Made by a program: the position numbers and the translations under genes. Below are positions 44,165 to 52,674 of a stretch of 64,000 nucleotides of DNA, in pieces. The notes beneath the pieces were generated by a model. That model made no database searches. It was not told the origin of the DNA and worked only from the letters and a program-made list of their open reading frames with translations. Position 1 is the first letter of the stretch. Each line of letters begins with the position of its first letter. The DNA comes from Acidimicrobiales bacterium (GTDB taxonomy: Bacteria > Actinomycetota > Acidimicrobiia > Acidimicrobiales > UBA8190), in contig DATKSK010000030.1 of the NCBI GenBank assembly GCA_035531755.1, positions 62,001 through 126,000 on the forward strand, given 5' to 3'.

Positions 44165-44202
44165 CGGCTTCCCGGCGGGCGGGACGACGCGCCGCCCGTC
44201 AG
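44161..44202. terminator. Bidirectional terminator hairpin
   Basis: CTGACGG (44161-44167) pairs with CCGTCAG (44196-44202), and an inner CGGGCGG/CCGCCCG stem is an alternative. Both converging genes place their stop codons inside the outer stem. Confidence 0.5.
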
Positions 44203-46092: not shown

Positions 46093-46405
46093 GTTCAGTC
46101 TCCTTCGTGACAGCAGTCCCCGATCTGGGGCCTCATCACCGTGGGCCGCGGACCTTTGGTGCCCCGCACGACCAGCTGTGCGTCACCTACGAGCGTCCGT
46201 CTTGCCGATGCGTCAACGGGCGTGTCGATCGGGGCTAGCGTCGGCGACGCGTCTGGGGCCGGATTGATGTGGTCTCAGTGGGGGGCGGACCTTCCCGGTC
46301 CGACCCCGGGCGCGAAGGGACTGCTCGATCCCGGGTTTGGTGACGGGGCGCCTCCACGTTCCACGCGAGCCCCGCCCGGCGGCCCCGCTCCACGACACCG
46401 ACGTT

Positions 46406-46489
46406 CCGCTCCCCAGGCCGCTCCCCAGGCCGCGCCCCAGGCCGCTCCCCAGGCCGCTCACCAGGCCGCTCCCCAGGCCGCTCACCAGG
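46406..46489. repeat. 12-bp minisatellite, seven units
   Basis: CCGCTCCCCAGG repeated seven times head to tail (46406-46489), with single changes in units 3, 5 and 7. The array has no interruption. Confidence 0.95.
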
Positions 46490-46552
46490 GAGAACCATCT
46501 CCCTCCGGCGTTCCCGGGGCTCCCTGGGCCCTCCCGACCGTCGGCCCGATTT

Positions 46553-46579
46553 CACAGGGGGCTCACAGCCGACCCACAG
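46553..46579 (+). promoter_or_regulatory. Candidate OmpR-type operator: three CACAG boxes, 11-bp spacing
   Basis: CACAG at 46553-46557, 46564-46568 and 46575-46579. It lies about 50 bp before the response-regulator start. Autoregulation is inferred from spacing and position only. Confidence 0.4.
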
Positions 46580-46629
46580 TGGCCCTGCAACCGGGACCGT
46601 CATCCTCGGAGCGGGAGGTGCGTCGGACC

Positions 46630-47331
46630 GTGGAAAAGTCGGAACGTCACAGGGTGCTGGTCGTCGACGACGAGCCGTCGATCGTCGACGCCGTGGCCAC
46701 CTCGTTGCGCTACGAGGGCTTCGACGTGGAGGAGGCGATCTCGGGACGGGCGGCCCTGGCCGCCGCACAGGAACGCCCCCCGGACCTGATCGTCCTCGAC
46801 GTGATGCTGCCCGACCTCGACGGCCTCGAGGTGACGCGCCGACTGCGTATGGACGGTATCCGCGCACCGGTGCTGTTCCTCACCGCACGCGATTCCCTCG
46901 AGGACAAGATCGCCGGGCTCACCGTCGGTGGCGACGACTACGTCACCAAGCCCTTCGCGCTGGCAGAGATCATCGCCCGCGCCAGGGCGCTGCTGCGCCG
47001 GTCGGGTGTCGACCAGGCGGACGAGGGCATCCTGCGCTTCGCCGACCTCGAAATGGACGAGGGCGCGCACGAAGTCCGGCGGGGCGGTGCGCGCATCCAG
47101 CTGACGGCCACGGAGTTCAACCTGCTGCGCTTCTTCCTCCGCAACCCTCGCCAGGTGCTCTCCAAGGCGCAGATCCTCGACAACGTGTGGCACTACGACT
47201 TCGGCGGCGAGGCGAACGTGGTCGAGACCTACGTGAGCTACCTGCGCAAGAAGCTCGAGCGTCACGGGCCACCGCTCATCCACACCATCCGCCTGGTCGG
47301 TTACACCCTGCGCGATCCGGAGGCCTCCTAG
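46630..47331 (+). CDS. OmpR/PhoB-family response regulator
   Basis: 233 residues. Receiver domain with acidic pair DD (VLVVDDEPS), phosphorylated Asp57 in DLIVLDVMLPDLDG, and the switch Lys in DDYVTKPF. The C-terminal winged helix (LTATEFNLLRFFLRNPRQVLSKAQIL, VVETYVSYLRKKL) binds DNA. GTG 46630 is chosen because a GGGAGG site lies 11 bp upstream; GTG 46618 overlaps that site. The kinase gene begins at the base after this stop codon. Confidence 0.94.
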   Translation: MEKSERHRVLVVDDEPSIVDAVATSLRYEGFDVEEAISGRAALAAAQERPPDLIVLDVMLPDLDGLEVTRRLRMDGIRAPVLFLTARDSLEDKIAGLTVGGDDYVTKPFALAEIIARARALLRRSGVDQADEGILRFADLEMDEGAHEVRRGGARIQLTATEFNLLRFFLRNPRQVLSKAQILDNVWHYDFGGEANVVETYVSYLRKKLERHGPPLIHTIRLVGYTLRDPEAS

Positions 47332-49020
47332 GTGTCCCTCAGGACCCGGCTGCTGCTGGCGGCCGGTGCCGTTGCGCTCATCGCGCTCGTGATCGCCGAC
47401 GCCGTCACGTACCAGGAGCTGCGTTCCTTCCTCTACGGCAAGATCGACCAGTCGCTCGAGCAGTCCCATAGGCCCATCGAGATCGCCCTGCACAGCGGCC
47501 CGTCGCCCCAGGGCGCGGGGAGGGAGGCGCCCGCGCCGGTCGGCGCCGGGAACGGCATCGCCGGATCGGGAACGACGTCGTCCACATCGACGCCGAGCGT
47601 GTCGGAGGGCTCGTCGGGGACCGAATCCTGCTCCGGGTTCGGAGGGCTGTCGGACCCCGTGCTGCGCCAGCTGGCCCCGAGCACGTTCGTCGAGCTCCGG
47701 AGCGCGACCGGTGCAGCCTTGTGCACGTACTCGGCACCTCCCGAGCTGGGCAGCGCCGAGTCGGTCTCCGAGTCGACCCCGAAATTGCCGGCGCGCGTCA
47801 CCGGATATGCCAAGAATGCCTCCGACCTCGGGGAGCCCACCGTCTACTTCACCGCCGCTGCAGCCAAGGGCGGCGATTCGCAGTTCCGGATGCGGGCGTC
47901 GGTCCTCGAATCGGGCCCGTACGTCGGGGGGGAGCTCCTCGTCGGCGTCCCGCTCGATTCCACTGTCGGGACGCTCGATCGATTGCTGGTCGTGGAGCTG
48001 GCGGTGACGGGCGCCGCGCTGGCCGGGGCGCTACTCCTCGGATGGTGGCTGGTGCGAGTCGGTTTGCGCCCGCTGCGCGCCGTGGAGGGCACCGCCGCGG
48101 CGATCGCCCGGGGTGAGCTCGCCGAGCGCGTCCCCGGCGAGGAGGCCCGGACGGAGGTCGGGCGCCTGGCGCGCTCGCTGAACGTCATGCTGGGCCGGAT
48201 CGAGAAGGCCTTCGCCCAGCGCGACGCCACCGAGCGAGAGCTGCGGGAGTCCGAGGGTCGCATGCGCCAATTCGTCGCCGACGCGTCGCACGAGCTGCGC
48301 ACGCCGCTCACCGCCGTCTCCGCGTACGCCGAGCTCTTCGAGCAGGGGGCCGTCACCCGTGCCGACGACCTCGAGCGCGTCATGCAGGGGATCCGCAGCG
48401 AGACGGCGCGCATGGGCCACCTCGTCGAGGACCTCCTGCTCCTGGCCCGGTTGGACGAGGGCCGGCCGCTCGAGCAGGAGGAGGTCGAGCTCGTGGGCGT
48501 GGCGGCGCAAGCCGTCCAGACTGCGGCCACCGTGGGACCGCAGTGGCCCGTCCAGCTGGTGGCCCGGGAACCGGTCGAAGTCGCCGGGGACCACCTGCGG
48601 CTGCGCCAGGTCCTCGACAACCTCCTGGCCAACGTGCGGACCCATTGCCCCGCCGGGACGTCGACGGTGGTGGCGGTGTCGAGCGAGCCCGGGAACGCGC
48701 TGATCACCGTGTCCGACGACGGCCCTGGCCTCGACCCCGAGCTCGCCGCCCGGATCTTCGAGCGCTTCTACCGCGCCGACCCCTCCCGATCGCGCCGCCA
48801 CGGTGGTGCCGGCCTCGGCCTGTCGATCGTGGCCTCGATCGTCAAGGCGCACGGCGGCACCGTCGCCACCGCGCCGCGACCCGGCGGAGGATCGGTGTTC
48901 ACCATCCGCCTCCCCCTCGCCGGGGACGGGGACGGGGACGGGGACGGGGACGAGAGCGGGGACGGGGCCAACGCCGACGGCCCGATCTCCTCCGGGGATT
49001 CTCAGCCGACTCATAGCTGA
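47332..49020 (+). CDS. Sensor histidine kinase, HAMP-HisKA-HATPase
   Basis: 562 residues. Span 1 at about 6-25, an extracytoplasmic sensor of about 190 residues, span 2 at about 218-241, HAMP, HisKA with H320 (ADASHELRTPLTAVSAY), N-box LDNLLANVRTH, G1 DDGPGLD and G2 GGAGLGLSI. The sensor holds two cysteines (C100, C131), a possible disulfide, and Ser/Gly-rich loops. An Asp/Gly repeat (GDGDGDGDGD) makes up part of the tail. GTG start directly abuts the regulator stop, so the two are translated together. MprB/TcrY-type kinases are the nearest style. Confidence 0.93.
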   Translation: MSLRTRLLLAAGAVALIALVIADAVTYQELRSFLYGKIDQSLEQSHRPIEIALHSGPSPQGAGREAPAPVGAGNGIAGSGTTSSTSTPSVSEGSSGTESCSGFGGLSDPVLRQLAPSTFVELRSATGAALCTYSAPPELGSAESVSESTPKLPARVTGYAKNASDLGEPTVYFTAAAAKGGDSQFRMRASVLESGPYVGGELLVGVPLDSTVGTLDRLLVVELAVTGAALAGALLLGWWLVRVGLRPLRAVEGTAAAIARGELAERVPGEEARTEVGRLARSLNVMLGRIEKAFAQRDATERELRESEGRMRQFVADASHELRTPLTAVSAYAELFEQGAVTRADDLERVMQGIRSETARMGHLVEDLLLLARLDEGRPLEQEEVELVGVAAQAVQTAATVGPQWPVQLVAREPVEVAGDHLRLRQVLDNLLANVRTHCPAGTSTVVAVSSEPGNALITVSDDGPGLDPELAARIFERFYRADPSRSRRHGGAGLGLSIVASIVKAHGGTVATAPRPGGGSVFTIRLPLAGDGDGDGDGDESGDGANADGPISSGDSQPTHS

Positions 49021-49060: not shown

Positions 49061-49468
49061 ATGAACGAGACGCCCACAGGAGACGCCGTCGTCAACCACC
49101 CGGCACCCCCCGACGGTGGGGCCGCATGCTCGTCCGGCAGGGCCGGGGGCCCGCCAGCGGCGACACGTGCCGTGACCGTGACCCGGGTCCGCCGGGCCTC
49201 GAGGACCTTCGCCATCGTGGCCGCCGGCGCCGCCGCGCTGCTCGGCGTGGTCGTGTCCAAGGAGATCCCCGGGACCACCGCTGCCGCCCGGACCACCGCC
49301 ACCGGCGGGTCCCCGTCCGGGGTCTCGTCCGCCACGACGGCGGGGGGCTCGGGCACCACCTCGGGCACGTCCAGCTCGTCGCCGGCGACATCGTCGTCGC
49401 CGGGCTCCTCGTCGTCCTCGGGGTCGGCGACGGTCGTCTCCGGCGGCACCGGCGGCACCGGCCACTGA
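49061..49468 (+). CDS. Single-span Ser/Thr/Gly-rich protein of the electron-transfer operon
   Basis: 135 residues, not assigned to a family. A polar N-terminus of about 45 residues is followed by VRRASR and one hydrophobic span (TFAIVAAGAAALLGVVV). The last about 65 residues are almost only Ser, Thr, Gly, Ala and Pro (for example ATSSSPGSSSSSGS). An N-in anchor with an exported low-complexity tail is likely. Such a tail could be glycosylated, or offer Thr acceptors for the neighbouring flavin transferase; no DxxxGAT-type flavinylation motif is certain. ATG 49061 is the first in-frame start. Confidence 0.6.
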   Translation: MNETPTGDAVVNHPAPPDGGAACSSGRAGGPPAATRAVTVTRVRRASRTFAIVAAGAAALLGVVVSKEIPGTTAAARTTATGGSPSGVSSATTAGGSGTTSGTSSSSPATSSSPGSSSSSGSATVVSGGTGGTGH

Positions 49469-49504: not shown

Positions 49505-50506
49505 ATGCGAACCATGACCCCTGAGACGCACGACGACCACGTCGACGCGCCGGCACCGTCCACGTCGGTGCCCCAGCCTGTGCTCCGCTCCATGCGGGCG
49601 ATCGGCACCACGGCGATCGTGGCGGTCACGGCGCCTGCGGCCGCGGCGCGCGCCGAGACGATCCTGGGCGAAGAGCTCGTCGCCATCGACGCGGCGTGCA
49701 GCCGCTTCCGGCCCGACTCGGAATTGTCGGCCCTGAACCGTGCGGGCGGGATCCCCGTGAACGTGAGCGCGTTGCTCTTCGAGGCCATCACCGTGGCGCT
49801 CGAGGTGGCGCAACGCACCGGGGGGGCGGTCGACCCCACGGTCGGCGCCGCCATCGAGGCGCTGGGCTATGACCGCGACTTCGAGGAACTCGGCGCCGAC
49901 ACCACGGCGCTGGTGCGACCGCCGCAGCCTGCGCCCGGCTGGTGGGAGATCGACCTCGACCCGCGCACCAGGACGGTGCGCGTGCCGCCCGGAACCCACA
50001 TCGACCTCGGCGCCTCCGCCAAGGCGCTCGTGACCGACCGGGCCGCCCAGCGCATCGCCCACGCGGTGCGCTCCGGCGTGCTCGTCAGCATCGGCGGCGA
50101 CGTCGCCGTCGCCGGGCCCGCGCCCGAAGGCGGCTGGGCGGTCGGCATCGCCCACGACTCCTCGGCGGCGGTCGACGCCGTCGACCAGGTGGTCGCCATC
50201 GCGACCGGCGGTATCGCCAGCTCGAGCACCGCCGTGCGCACGTGGCAGCGCGGCGCCCGGCGGCTGCACCACATCGTCGACCCGGCGACCGGCGACAGTG
50301 CTGCGCCCCACTGGACCCTGGTGTCGGCGTCCGGCGCGAGCTGCGTCGAGGCGAACGCAGCCAGCACGGCGGCCGTGGTGTGGGGCGAGCAGGCGGTGCC
50401 CAGGCTCGTCGAGCTCGGCCAACCCGCCCGCCTCGTCCGTCACGACGGACAGGTACTCACCCTGAACGGATGGCCCGCCGCCGACGAGCGGGGGCCACGG
50501 TCATGA
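49505..50506 (+). CDS. apbE: FAD:protein FMN transferase (ApbE family)
   Basis: Covalently attaches FMN to Thr/Ser of a target protein, using FAD and Mg2+. 333 residues with family blocks: AIGTTAIVAV, IDAACSRFRPDSELSALNR, THIDLGASAKALVTDRAA, VSIGGDVAVAG and GGWAVGIAHD, plus HHIVDPATGD. Unlike most ApbE proteins there is no signal peptide or lipobox, so it appears cytoplasmic. ATG 49514 is an alternative start, with GGA nine bases before it. Its stop overlaps the next gene by 4 bp (ATGA). Confidence 0.9.
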   Translation: MRTMTPETHDDHVDAPAPSTSVPQPVLRSMRAIGTTAIVAVTAPAAAARAETILGEELVAIDAACSRFRPDSELSALNRAGGIPVNVSALLFEAITVALEVAQRTGGAVDPTVGAAIEALGYDRDFEELGADTTALVRPPQPAPGWWEIDLDPRTRTVRVPPGTHIDLGASAKALVTDRAAQRIAHAVRSGVLVSIGGDVAVAGPAPEGGWAVGIAHDSSAAVDAVDQVVAIATGGIASSSTAVRTWQRGARRLHHIVDPATGDSAAPHWTLVSASGASCVEANAASTAAVVWGEQAVPRLVELGQPARLVRHDGQVLTLNGWPAADERGPRS

Positions 50507-51105
50507 CCTCCCCCGTCCTCTGGTACGCCACCCGCGCCACCGGTCTCGTGGCGCTGGTCCTCCTCACCGGCACCACGGTGCTCGGGATCATGACCGCCAA
50601 CCGGTTCGCCACACGGTGGTGGCCGCGCTTCGCCCAGCAGGACCTCCACCGCCGCGTGTCCATGACCACCATGGCCTTCCTCGGGGCCCACATCGTCACG
50701 AGCGTCATGGACAGCTACGTCCACATCGGATGGGCCGCCGTCGTCGTTCCCTTCGCCTCGACCTACAAGCGCCTATGGGTCACGCTGGGGACGGTGGGTG
50801 TCGACCTGCTCCTCGCCGTGGCCATCACGAGCGCGCTGCGCCACAAGATGGCCGCCCGCACCTGGCGGGCAGTGCACTGGCTGGCGTACCTCTGCTGGCC
50901 CGTCGCCCTCTCCCACGCCTTCGGGATCGGGACCGACATGCGCCAGGGCTGGGTGATCGACCTCGCCGTCGGCTGCATCGCCGCCGTGGTCGGCGCCGCC
51001 ACCTGGCGCATCACCCTCGGCGTGGCCCGCAGGCGCCGGGCGTTGGACGTCGTTCCCATCCGCGAGCGCCCCCAGGGCGTCGCCGTCAAGCACATCTCCG
51101 TCTAA
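50503..51105 (+). CDS. Ferric-reductase-like transmembrane heme protein
   Basis: 200 residues, about five or six membrane spans: WYATRATGLVALVLLTGTTVLGIM, TMAFLGAHIVTSVM, WAAVVVPFAS, LGTVGVDLLLAVAITSAL, WLAYLCWPVALSHAFGIG and a last span near VGCIAAVVGAATW. Conserved-looking His residues (LHRR, GAHI, YVHIG, AVHWL, LSHAFG) sit in helices as in b-heme ferric reductase domains. No FAD/NAD domain is fused, so electrons must come from a partner, probably the flavoprotein encoded next. ATGA overlap with apbE. Confidence 0.85.
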   Translation: MTSPVLWYATRATGLVALVLLTGTTVLGIMTANRFATRWWPRFAQQDLHRRVSMTTMAFLGAHIVTSVMDSYVHIGWAAVVVPFASTYKRLWVTLGTVGVDLLLAVAITSALRHKMAARTWRAVHWLAYLCWPVALSHAFGIGTDMRQGWVIDLAVGCIAAVVGAATWRITLGVARRRRALDVVPIRERPQGVAVKHISV

Positions 51106-51121
51106 CCGACAAGGACACCCG

Positions 51122-52453
51122 ATGACGATCACGACAACCGCCGACAGTGCAGCCGTCGCCAACGGCGCCGGCACCGGCGTCGGGACCAGCGCTGGCGGGT
51201 CCACGCTCCTCGGGAGCTGGCGGGCGCGCCACAGCGCGGACCTCGGCGCCCACCTGGCCCACCACGGCCCAATTCCATTGCCGGGCCCTGGGGACACGTC
51301 GTGGGCGGACCGGTTCGCGGCGGCGATCGAGGCGTCGGGGATCACCGGACGCGGCGGGGCGGCGTTCCCGTCGTCCGCCAAGCTCGCGCTGGCGCGCGCC
51401 GGCCGGGCCGGGCCGACGCTCGTGGTCAACGCCATGGAAGGAGAGCCGGCCAGCGGCAAGGACCAGGCGCTGCTGTCGTGCGTTCCCCACCTCGTCCTCG
51501 ACGGCGCCCAGCTGGTCGCCGCCGCCATCGGCGCCGGTCGGATCGCGCTGTGCATCCCCGCCGACCGCTACGACACCGCGCTCGCCGCCTCGCGTGCCGT
51601 GGCGGAGCGCGCCGGCACCGGGCTCATGCCCGTCGCCGTCACCGTCGTCCGGCCGCCGGGACGCTACGTCGCCGGGGAGGAGTCGGCGCTGGCCTCGTGG
51701 TTGGACGGCGGTCCCGGGGCACCCACGTTCCGACCGCGAAAGGGTGTCGCACTGACGATCGGGCGGCGTCCCGCCCTTGTCCACAACGCCGAGACCCTGG
51801 CGCACATGGCCCTGGTGGCACGGTACGGCCCGGACGCCTTCCGTGCCGCCGGGCGGCCCGGATCACCGGGCTCGACCCTGGTGACGGTGACGGGCGGCGT
51901 GGAGCACCCCGGGGTCTACGAGATCGCCCTGGGGACGCCGCTGGCGGAGGTCGTCGGCTGGGCGCACCCGGTCGACGAGGTCCAGGCCGTGCTGACCGGT
52001 GGGTTCGGCGGGAGCTGGCTCCCCGCCGCCGCCCTCGGGACCGCGTACGCGCCGGGCCCCATGGCCGCGGTCGGCGGTGTGGTCGGCGCCGGGGTCCTGG
52101 TCGTGCTCCCCCGCACCGCCTGCGGGATCGCCGAGACGGCGCGCATCGCCCGGCACATGGCGGGCGAGAGCGCCGGCCAGTGCGGGCCCTGTGTGTTCGG
52201 GCTCCCGGCCATCGCGCAGGACCTGGCATGGCTGGCGAGCGGGAGAGCCGACGCCGGGCTGACCCCGCGCCTGGAGGGCCGCTTCGGCGCCGTCAACGGG
52301 CGCGGCGCCTGCCGACACCCCGACGGCGTCGTCCGCATGGCGCGCAGCGCACTGTCGGTCTTCGCCGGCGATGCCGCTGCCCACGCCTCGGGTCGGCCGT
52401 GCCTCCACCATGCCCGCCCGTCGCTGCTCCCGCCGGCGACGGCGCGACCGTGA
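51122..52453 (+). CDS. NuoF/RnfC-like NAD(P)H-dehydrogenase flavoprotein
   Basis: 443 residues. Like complex I subunit NuoF: FMN/NADH fold with GITGRGGAAFPS (74-84), NAMEGEPASGKD, VAGEESALASWLDGG, an SLBB domain (TVTGGVEHPGVYEIALGTPL) and a C-terminal Fe-S helical domain. The usual C-x2-C-x2-C-x40-C ligand set reads ESAGQCGPC ... GACRHP, so the first Cys is Ala351 and only C354, C357 and C397 remain. Likely oxidises NAD(P)H and passes electrons to the downstream ferredoxin or heme protein. Starts 16 bp after the heme protein gene. Confidence 0.85.
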   Translation: MTITTTADSAAVANGAGTGVGTSAGGSTLLGSWRARHSADLGAHLAHHGPIPLPGPGDTSWADRFAAAIEASGITGRGGAAFPSSAKLALARAGRAGPTLVVNAMEGEPASGKDQALLSCVPHLVLDGAQLVAAAIGAGRIALCIPADRYDTALAASRAVAERAGTGLMPVAVTVVRPPGRYVAGEESALASWLDGGPGAPTFRPRKGVALTIGRRPALVHNAETLAHMALVARYGPDAFRAAGRPGSPGSTLVTVTGGVEHPGVYEIALGTPLAEVVGWAHPVDEVQAVLTGGFGGSWLPAAALGTAYAPGPMAAVGGVVGAGVLVVLPRTACGIAETARIARHMAGESAGQCGPCVFGLPAIAQDLAWLASGRADAGLTPRLEGRFGAVNGRGACRHPDGVVRMARSALSVFAGDAAAHASGRPCLHHARPSLLPPATARP

Positions 52454-52464
52454 GGAGGGCCGTC

Positions 52465-52674
52465 GTGAAGACGACGATCAGGGTCGATCCGATCGCGTGT
52501 GACGCGTACGGGTACTGTGCCGAGCTGCTCCCCGAGCTCGTCAGCCTCGACGAGTGGGGCTACCCCGTCGTCGGCGGGCAGCCCGTGCCCGGTCACGTGC
52601 TGGCGCTGGCCCGGCAGGCCGCCAAGGACTGCCCCCGACGGGCCCTGGTGCTCGAGCAGGCGTCCGACGACTGA
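52465..52674 (+). CDS. Three-cysteine ferredoxin (probable [3Fe-4S])
   Basis: 69 residues. C12-x5-C18 (ACDAYGYCAEL) and C56-P (KDCPRRAL) with the usual DPxxC start and GxP turn. Only three cysteines are present, as in many actinobacterial [3Fe-4S] ferredoxins. GTG 52465 is preceded by GAGGAGGG at 6 bp. Electron carrier, likely partner of the flavoprotein just upstream (11-bp gap). Confidence 0.87.
   Translation: MKTTIRVDPIACDAYGYCAELLPELVSLDEWGYPVVGGQPVPGHVLALARQAAKDCPRRALVLEQASDD

Follow-up and report, generated by a model that had tools for sequence, protein, structure and literature searches.

A NuoF-like branch, mostly of Actinomycetota, without the first N3 cysteine and encoded with a three-cysteine ferredoxin, a heme protein and ApbE: a probable altered exit cluster in a proposed outward electron line

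The 64,000-nucleotide stretch of Acidimicrobiales DNA analysed here, hereafter the window, contains on its plus strand the gene of a 443 aa NuoF-like protein (nt 51122–52453, ATG start) whose cluster domain lacks one of the expected cysteines. In complex I and related proteins, N3 is the cluster that comes first behind the flavin. The protein has an FMN/NADH domain, an SLBB domain and an N3-type cluster domain, with Pfam matches to Complex1_51K (6e-30), SLBB (1e-6) and NADH_4Fe-4S (7e-12), i.e., all three domains used here to recognise a NuoF. Its AlphaFold model, built on a 76-row alignment, reached a mean pLDDT of 92 and a pTM of 0.91, and the top Foldseek matches of the model were complex I NuoF, Nfn and HydB chains. 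In the phmmer alignment with Thermus Nqo1 (2fug_1) the motif ESAGQCGPC falls on HESCGKCTPC, so that Ala351 (nt 52172–52174, as counted from the ORF start) takes the position of the first N3 cysteine, an assignment in keeping with the conservation described below. The remaining N3 cysteines are, on the same strand, Cys354 (nt 52181–52183), Cys357 (nt 52190–52192) and Cys397 (nt 52310–52312, in GACRHP), the last aligning on the fourth cysteine of Nqo1. The four-cysteine set of complex I NuoF is incomplete at Ala351, exactly as the first-pass annotation had read it when it counted three of the four Fe-S cysteines and placed an alanine at the first. Fold, domains and three N3 cysteines are common to this protein and to complex I NuoF/Nqo1, from which it differs by the absence of the first N3 cysteine, by a TIGR01959 NuoF equivalog score of 169.6 bits, below the cut-off of 558.65, and by the lack of NuoE and NuoG among the window neighbours scanned between nt 44199 and 59861.

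Homologues were collected by homology search in 60 genomes (the relatives set), by a contig scan, from which the best 80 of 592 relatives were kept, and by a further homology search covering 149 phylum genomes, 117 of which gave a match and from which 30 loci were read (one of them, L129, is the same gene as L031). From 161 ORFs carrying the domain, 5 shorter than 330 residues and 7 duplicates were removed and the window protein was added, resulting in an alignment of 150 rows in which the window protein appears twice (as itself and as L001). Position 351 is occupied by a residue other than cysteine in 110 of the 150 rows (104 Ala, 5 Ser and 1 Thr) and by cysteine in the other 40, here termed Cys351 rows; the 110 rows are referred to as the subfamily and come from the relatives set (25), the contig scan (73, out of the best 80 of 592 relatives) and the phylum set (11), plus the window. 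Cys354 and Cys357 are present in 110/110 subfamily rows, bearing in mind that the contig scan used two patterns derived from the subfamily itself (EGEPASxKD and GQCGPCxxGL), one of which includes both cysteines while position 351 lies outside both. Cys397 is found in 107 of the 108 rows with a letter there, the sole exception being L037, where an unread base alters the reading downstream; the three N3 cysteines are thus kept in every intact subfamily row, divergent members of the phylum included. The residues G76, R77, G78, G79, K87, N103, E106, E108, N222 and E224, which have FMN/NADH roles, are common to the subfamily and the Cys351 rows. The 40 Cys351 rows do not include a cut NuoF gene with the usual first cysteine (L068:2-1708, minus strand), which shares its locus with an Ala-type cassette encoded on the other strand.

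As the subfamily was sorted by residue 351 itself, independent evidence comes from the tree and from the neighbouring genes. A quick unrooted tree was calculated from 51 of the 110 subfamily rows and all 40 Cys351 rows, after removing columns 334, 351, 421 and 427. In this 91-row tree, which contains two long rows (L139 and L140), one branch with an SH-aLRT of 100 splits the two groups; the absence of Cys351 is confined to that one branch, and a single change suffices to explain the trait. On such an unrooted tree, the first N3 cysteine was probably lost once, when the branch took the ferredoxin as its partner. The alignment of homologues that the first-pass annotation had proposed as a check of Ala351 thus speaks in its favour, the loss extending through the subfamily, whereas homologues with a retained fourth cysteine would have argued against it. 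In the contig scan (best 80 of 592) most carriers of the subfamily are labelled Actinomycetota, the labels Acidobacteriota, Dormiibacter and Chloroflexi being found on single contigs.

The genome from which the window derives carries two further Ala351 genes, L031 (G000:C7) and L032 (G000:C22), both with ferredoxin and heme-protein neighbours, as well as one four-cysteine NuoF, L033 (G000:C16). Three divergent Ala351 proteins (L136–L138) read RENAGQCGSC or NENAGQCGSC; their genes are accompanied by a ferredoxin, no heme protein being found within 1.5 kb flanks, and another acceptor may be used by these three. Conversely, at L132 a heme protein was matched and a ferredoxin was not.

Immediately downstream of the NuoF-like gene, the window encodes a single-cluster ferredoxin (nt 52462–52674, plus strand, Pfam Fer4_15) with a candidate GTG start at nt 52462 or 52465 and the motif C-x2-Y-x2-C...CP; its closest solved chains are 4id8 and 8amq. 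The general form of the motif, C-x2-x-x2-C...C[PK], was present in 80 of 81 ferredoxin rows, the only miss (L064) being cut by a contig end, and its variable residue in the 80 scored rows was His (46), Phe (13), Tyr (10), Arg (9), Ser (1) or Ala (1). Among the best 80 of 592 relatives, the ferredoxin adjoins the NuoF-like gene in 77 of the 78 loci with room for it (the miss is L103), so that the pairing with a three-cysteine ferredoxin noticed by the first-pass annotation turns out to be a nearly fixed partnership. The same motif, with Tyr at the variable place in the window protein, is shared by the actinobacterial P450-system ferredoxins described in PMC6237146; those genes lie mostly beside P450 genes, whereas the ferredoxins of the subfamily lie beside the NuoF-like gene. 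According to that study, all ferredoxins of this kind examined held a [3Fe-4S] cluster, and the potentials of the M. marinum set ranged from -340 to +230 mV (PMC6237146). By analogy, the window ferredoxin is most likely of the [3Fe-4S] type.

Upstream of the NuoF-like gene and on the same strand are the genes of an ApbE flavin transferase (333 aa, nt 49505–50506, Pfam ApbE 6e-50), with no obvious signal peptide by eye, and of a 200 aa MsrQ-like membrane protein (Ferric_reduct, PF01794; nt 50503–51105) showing no other Pfam domain. In the MsrQ-like protein H49 and H63 are conserved in 79/80 rows (one gap) and H125 and H138 in 80/80, and these four histidines would be enough for two hemes. Within the best 80 of 592 relatives, the heme protein was found in 73 of 76 loci with room (misses L099, L110 and L123) and ApbE in 67 of 72 (misses L079, L099, L111, L117 and L123). 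In the phylum set, 12 loci with a residue other than cysteine at 351, one of which is again L031 of the window genome, included, within flanks of 1.5 kb, 11 with a ferredoxin and 9 with the heme protein. Among the Cys351 loci, many of which have short flanks, neither the 21 from the relatives set (flanks up to 1.5 kb at 12 loci and longer at 9, with a minimum of about 1 kb) nor the 18 among the 30 phylum loci read gave a match to the heme protein or to ApbE; a weak ferredoxin match lies 3 kb away in the Cys351 locus L046. A sensor histidine kinase (nt 47332–49020) just upstream, and a response regulator (nt 46141–47331, true start unsure), both on the plus strand, appear loosely linked to the system: of the best 80 of 592 relatives, 50 loci had sufficient flank, and 24 of these contain a kinase and a regulator somewhere.

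This type of system is already published: PMC8238504 reports 31 MsrQ-like flavinylation clusters with a NuoF-like gene, NAD(P)H being the likely donor, and these likewise combine apbE, a PF01794 heme protein and a NuoF-like protein (PF10589) and are spread broadly in Actinobacteria. The window agrees with such clusters in having a PF01794 membrane protein with heme histidines next to apbE, and differs from them since no FMN-binding domain was found among the neighbours scanned. Section 10 of PMC8238504, which deals with MsrQ-like systems, mentions neither the missing cysteine nor the ferredoxin, and in the open-licence literature searched nothing beyond that paper pointed to such a system, to the absent N3 ligand or to its association with a three-cysteine ferredoxin.

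A small Ser/Gly-rich protein encoded upstream of apbE (nt 49061–49468, plus strand), ending in VVSGGTGGTGH, is a candidate flavin carrier. By eye it has one hydrophobic segment and a Ser/Gly-rich stretch, and of the ApbE motif it shows only a C-terminal SGGT. Pfam assigned it to no family even at E = 1, so that, unlike MsrQ-like flavinylation systems, it offers no FMN-binding domain; none of the eight such proteins scanned has one. A same-strand upstream ORF ending in [ST]G[GA][ST] plus at most 5 residues occurs in 47 of 69 loci with room (best 80 of 592 relatives), as compared with 81 of the 8749 six-frame ORFs of the same loci, a count that includes the upstream ORFs themselves; the other 22 loci have no ORF with this ending, some showing near variants, e.g. 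SGQS. Homologues of low complexity were also seen (e.g. L082:3697-4065 and L084:1948-3093), many of them ending exactly in (S/T)GG(S/T) or SGA(S/T). As given in PMC12052999, ApbE recognises D-x-x-[S/T]-G-A-[S/T]; a tag needs no more than seven residues and performs best when placed terminally. The small protein may carry the flavin of the electron line proposed below, although Gly replaces the motif Ala in most of these proteins and the Asp is often absent.

How the cluster is held without the first cysteine allows for several answers. The first-pass annotation had pointed to Cys334 (nt 52121–52123) and Cys427 (nt 52400–52402) as stand-in ligands, either of which, becoming the fourth cysteine, would give a normal [4Fe-4S] cluster. 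Their invariance in the subfamily (C334 in 110/110 rows, C427 in 106/106 rows with a letter) was suggestive at first, but this candidate was dropped, as both residues, together with His421 (nt 52382–52384; 107/107 rows with a letter; all three codons on the plus strand), co-occur in Cys351 relatives and match a site of HydB. Indeed, C334 is present in 25 of the 40 Cys351 rows, and the His..Cys tail was found in 23 of these 25 and in none of the 15 rows without C334; of the two rows outside the 23, L045 is masked at the tail and L030 has both residues in a separate alignment. This co-occurrence argues that the residues form a unit independent of position 351. C334 changes six times on the 91-row tree, and a cysteine at this position was seen also in the HydB chains examined and in mycobacterial NuoF. 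Moreover, the spacing of C334, H421 and C427 is identical to that of HydB C438, H525 and C531 (offset 104), which belong, in A. mobile NiFe-HydB, to a site of C438, C476, C531, C536 and H525 modelled as [2Fe-2S] (PMC8880783). In T. maritima HydB, the end of a four-helix bundle carries a site modelled as zinc with one His and three Cys ligands, and Nqo1 has Ser, Leu, Arg and Pro at the zinc-site positions (PMC9499530); our Nqo1 alignment likewise places Ser under C334 and Leu under H421. In the AlphaFold model C334 directly precedes helix 335–348, whose far end leads to the cluster loop, these arguments on geometry being drawn from AlphaFold helix positions and the published HydB passages. The NuoF-like protein and HydB of bifurcating hydrogenases, share the core and the Cys...His-x5-Cys triad, whereas the HydB chains examined keep ESCG-C..C, and HydB has extra domains and C536, for which the subfamily offers neither a Cys nor a His in a constant position beyond C427 (by eye, a second cysteine lies three residues past C427 in a minority, e.g. 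L084, L090, L094 and L095). Judging from sequence, C334, H421 and C427 are probably a zinc (or [2Fe-2S]) site of the HydB kind and not N3 ligands. Since they fit a separate site, three cysteines are left for the cluster, and the recruitment of C334 or C427 as fourth ligand is very unlikely. Of the first-pass annotation, the three-cysteine cluster site across the subfamily and the ferredoxin pairing have held, while its cysteine stand-ins have not.

A replacement ligand of another kind was looked for in the two segments around the cluster (positions 345–359 and 392–403), where no invariant Asp, Glu, Ser, Thr, Tyr or His was found. The only polar residues conserved there in at least 97% of rows are R394 and Q353, the latter invariant in the subfamily and common to both sets, as Cys351 rows have Gln or Lys. 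The nearest candidates are Asp401 and His399, just past C397, and in the alignment no side chain is invariant as an obvious substitute. Both candidates distinguish the subfamily from the Cys351 rows, His399 being present in 95/107 rows against Leu in 38/40, and Asp401 in 103/107 against 8/40. In addition, as reported in PMC6237146, Asp ligation is known in the P. furiosus ferredoxin and His ligation in hydrogenase clusters. A [4Fe-4S] cluster completed by either residue nonetheless appears unlikely, given that position 399 varies in 12/107 rows (Leu, Thr, Tyr, Pro or Phe) and position 401 in 4/107, one row in each case possibly being the disturbed L037, while the three cysteines are invariant in intact rows. 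His399 may tune the flavin instead, as the complex I residue at this position lies close to FMN. Apart from position 351, the loop itself is otherwise remodelled in the alignment: Gly355 is found in 110/110 subfamily rows where 27/40 Cys351 rows have Thr or Pro, and position 358, Arg or Lys in 39/40 Cys351 rows, is mostly Val, Leu or Ala. With one ligand gone, this remodelling could be read as the decay of an empty site, with FMN handing electrons directly to the ferredoxin; such an outcome is highly improbable, as no intact row has given up C354, C357 or C397. The nearly fixed gene partners might also hint at a fourth ligand donated within the complex by the ferredoxin or the membrane protein, a reading to which we give hardly any credit, as 76/80 scored rows have no cysteine in the ferredoxin domain other than the three of the motif. 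With the first cysteine missing throughout the subfamily, just three cysteine ligands are naturally to be expected and, in view of the lack of an invariant substitute nearby, a [3Fe-4S] cluster or a [4Fe-4S] cluster with a non-cysteine site. We thus infer as most likely either a [3Fe-4S] cluster or a [4Fe-4S] cluster in which water or a non-cysteine residue binds one iron; a non-cysteine ligand, with Asp401 and His399 as candidates, would agree with the data equally well.

The order of the carriers is proposed because of the gene company, ApbE and the MsrQ-like gene lying upstream and the ferredoxin downstream of the NuoF-like gene in the proportions given above. NAD(P)H would be oxidised at the FMN of the NuoF-like entry subunit, and electrons would pass from FMN to the N3-type cluster, with C354, C357 and C397 as its only cysteine ligands, from this to the three-cysteine, [3Fe-4S]-type ferredoxin, then to the two hemes of the MsrQ-like membrane protein and finally to a covalent flavin attached by ApbE outside the membrane, ending on an outside acceptor. 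An outward line of this kind, running from NAD(P)H to the outside flavin through a cluster whose first N3 cysteine was lost once, is a reading that we consider rather probable. The loci named above that lack one of the partners (L136–L138, L132 and the misses among the best 80 of 592 relatives) count against it. The more specific version, in which N3 is converted to a [3Fe-4S] or open-site [4Fe-4S] cluster of raised potential that transfers electrons to the ferredoxin and two hemes, with FMN bound to the terminal residues of a tether that is anchored in the membrane and has no domain (a natural 'flavin tag'), is advanced more tentatively.

The branch-wide absence of the cysteine, together with the adjoining ferredoxin and heme-protein genes, points to a changed exit cluster within a system that exports electrons from the cell. 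In such a widespread three-cysteine branch, nature itself would show how the fourth ligand affects cluster type, potential, oxygen stability and partner choice, and the NuoF-type outward electron line of Actinobacteria gains a proposed path with testable carriers.
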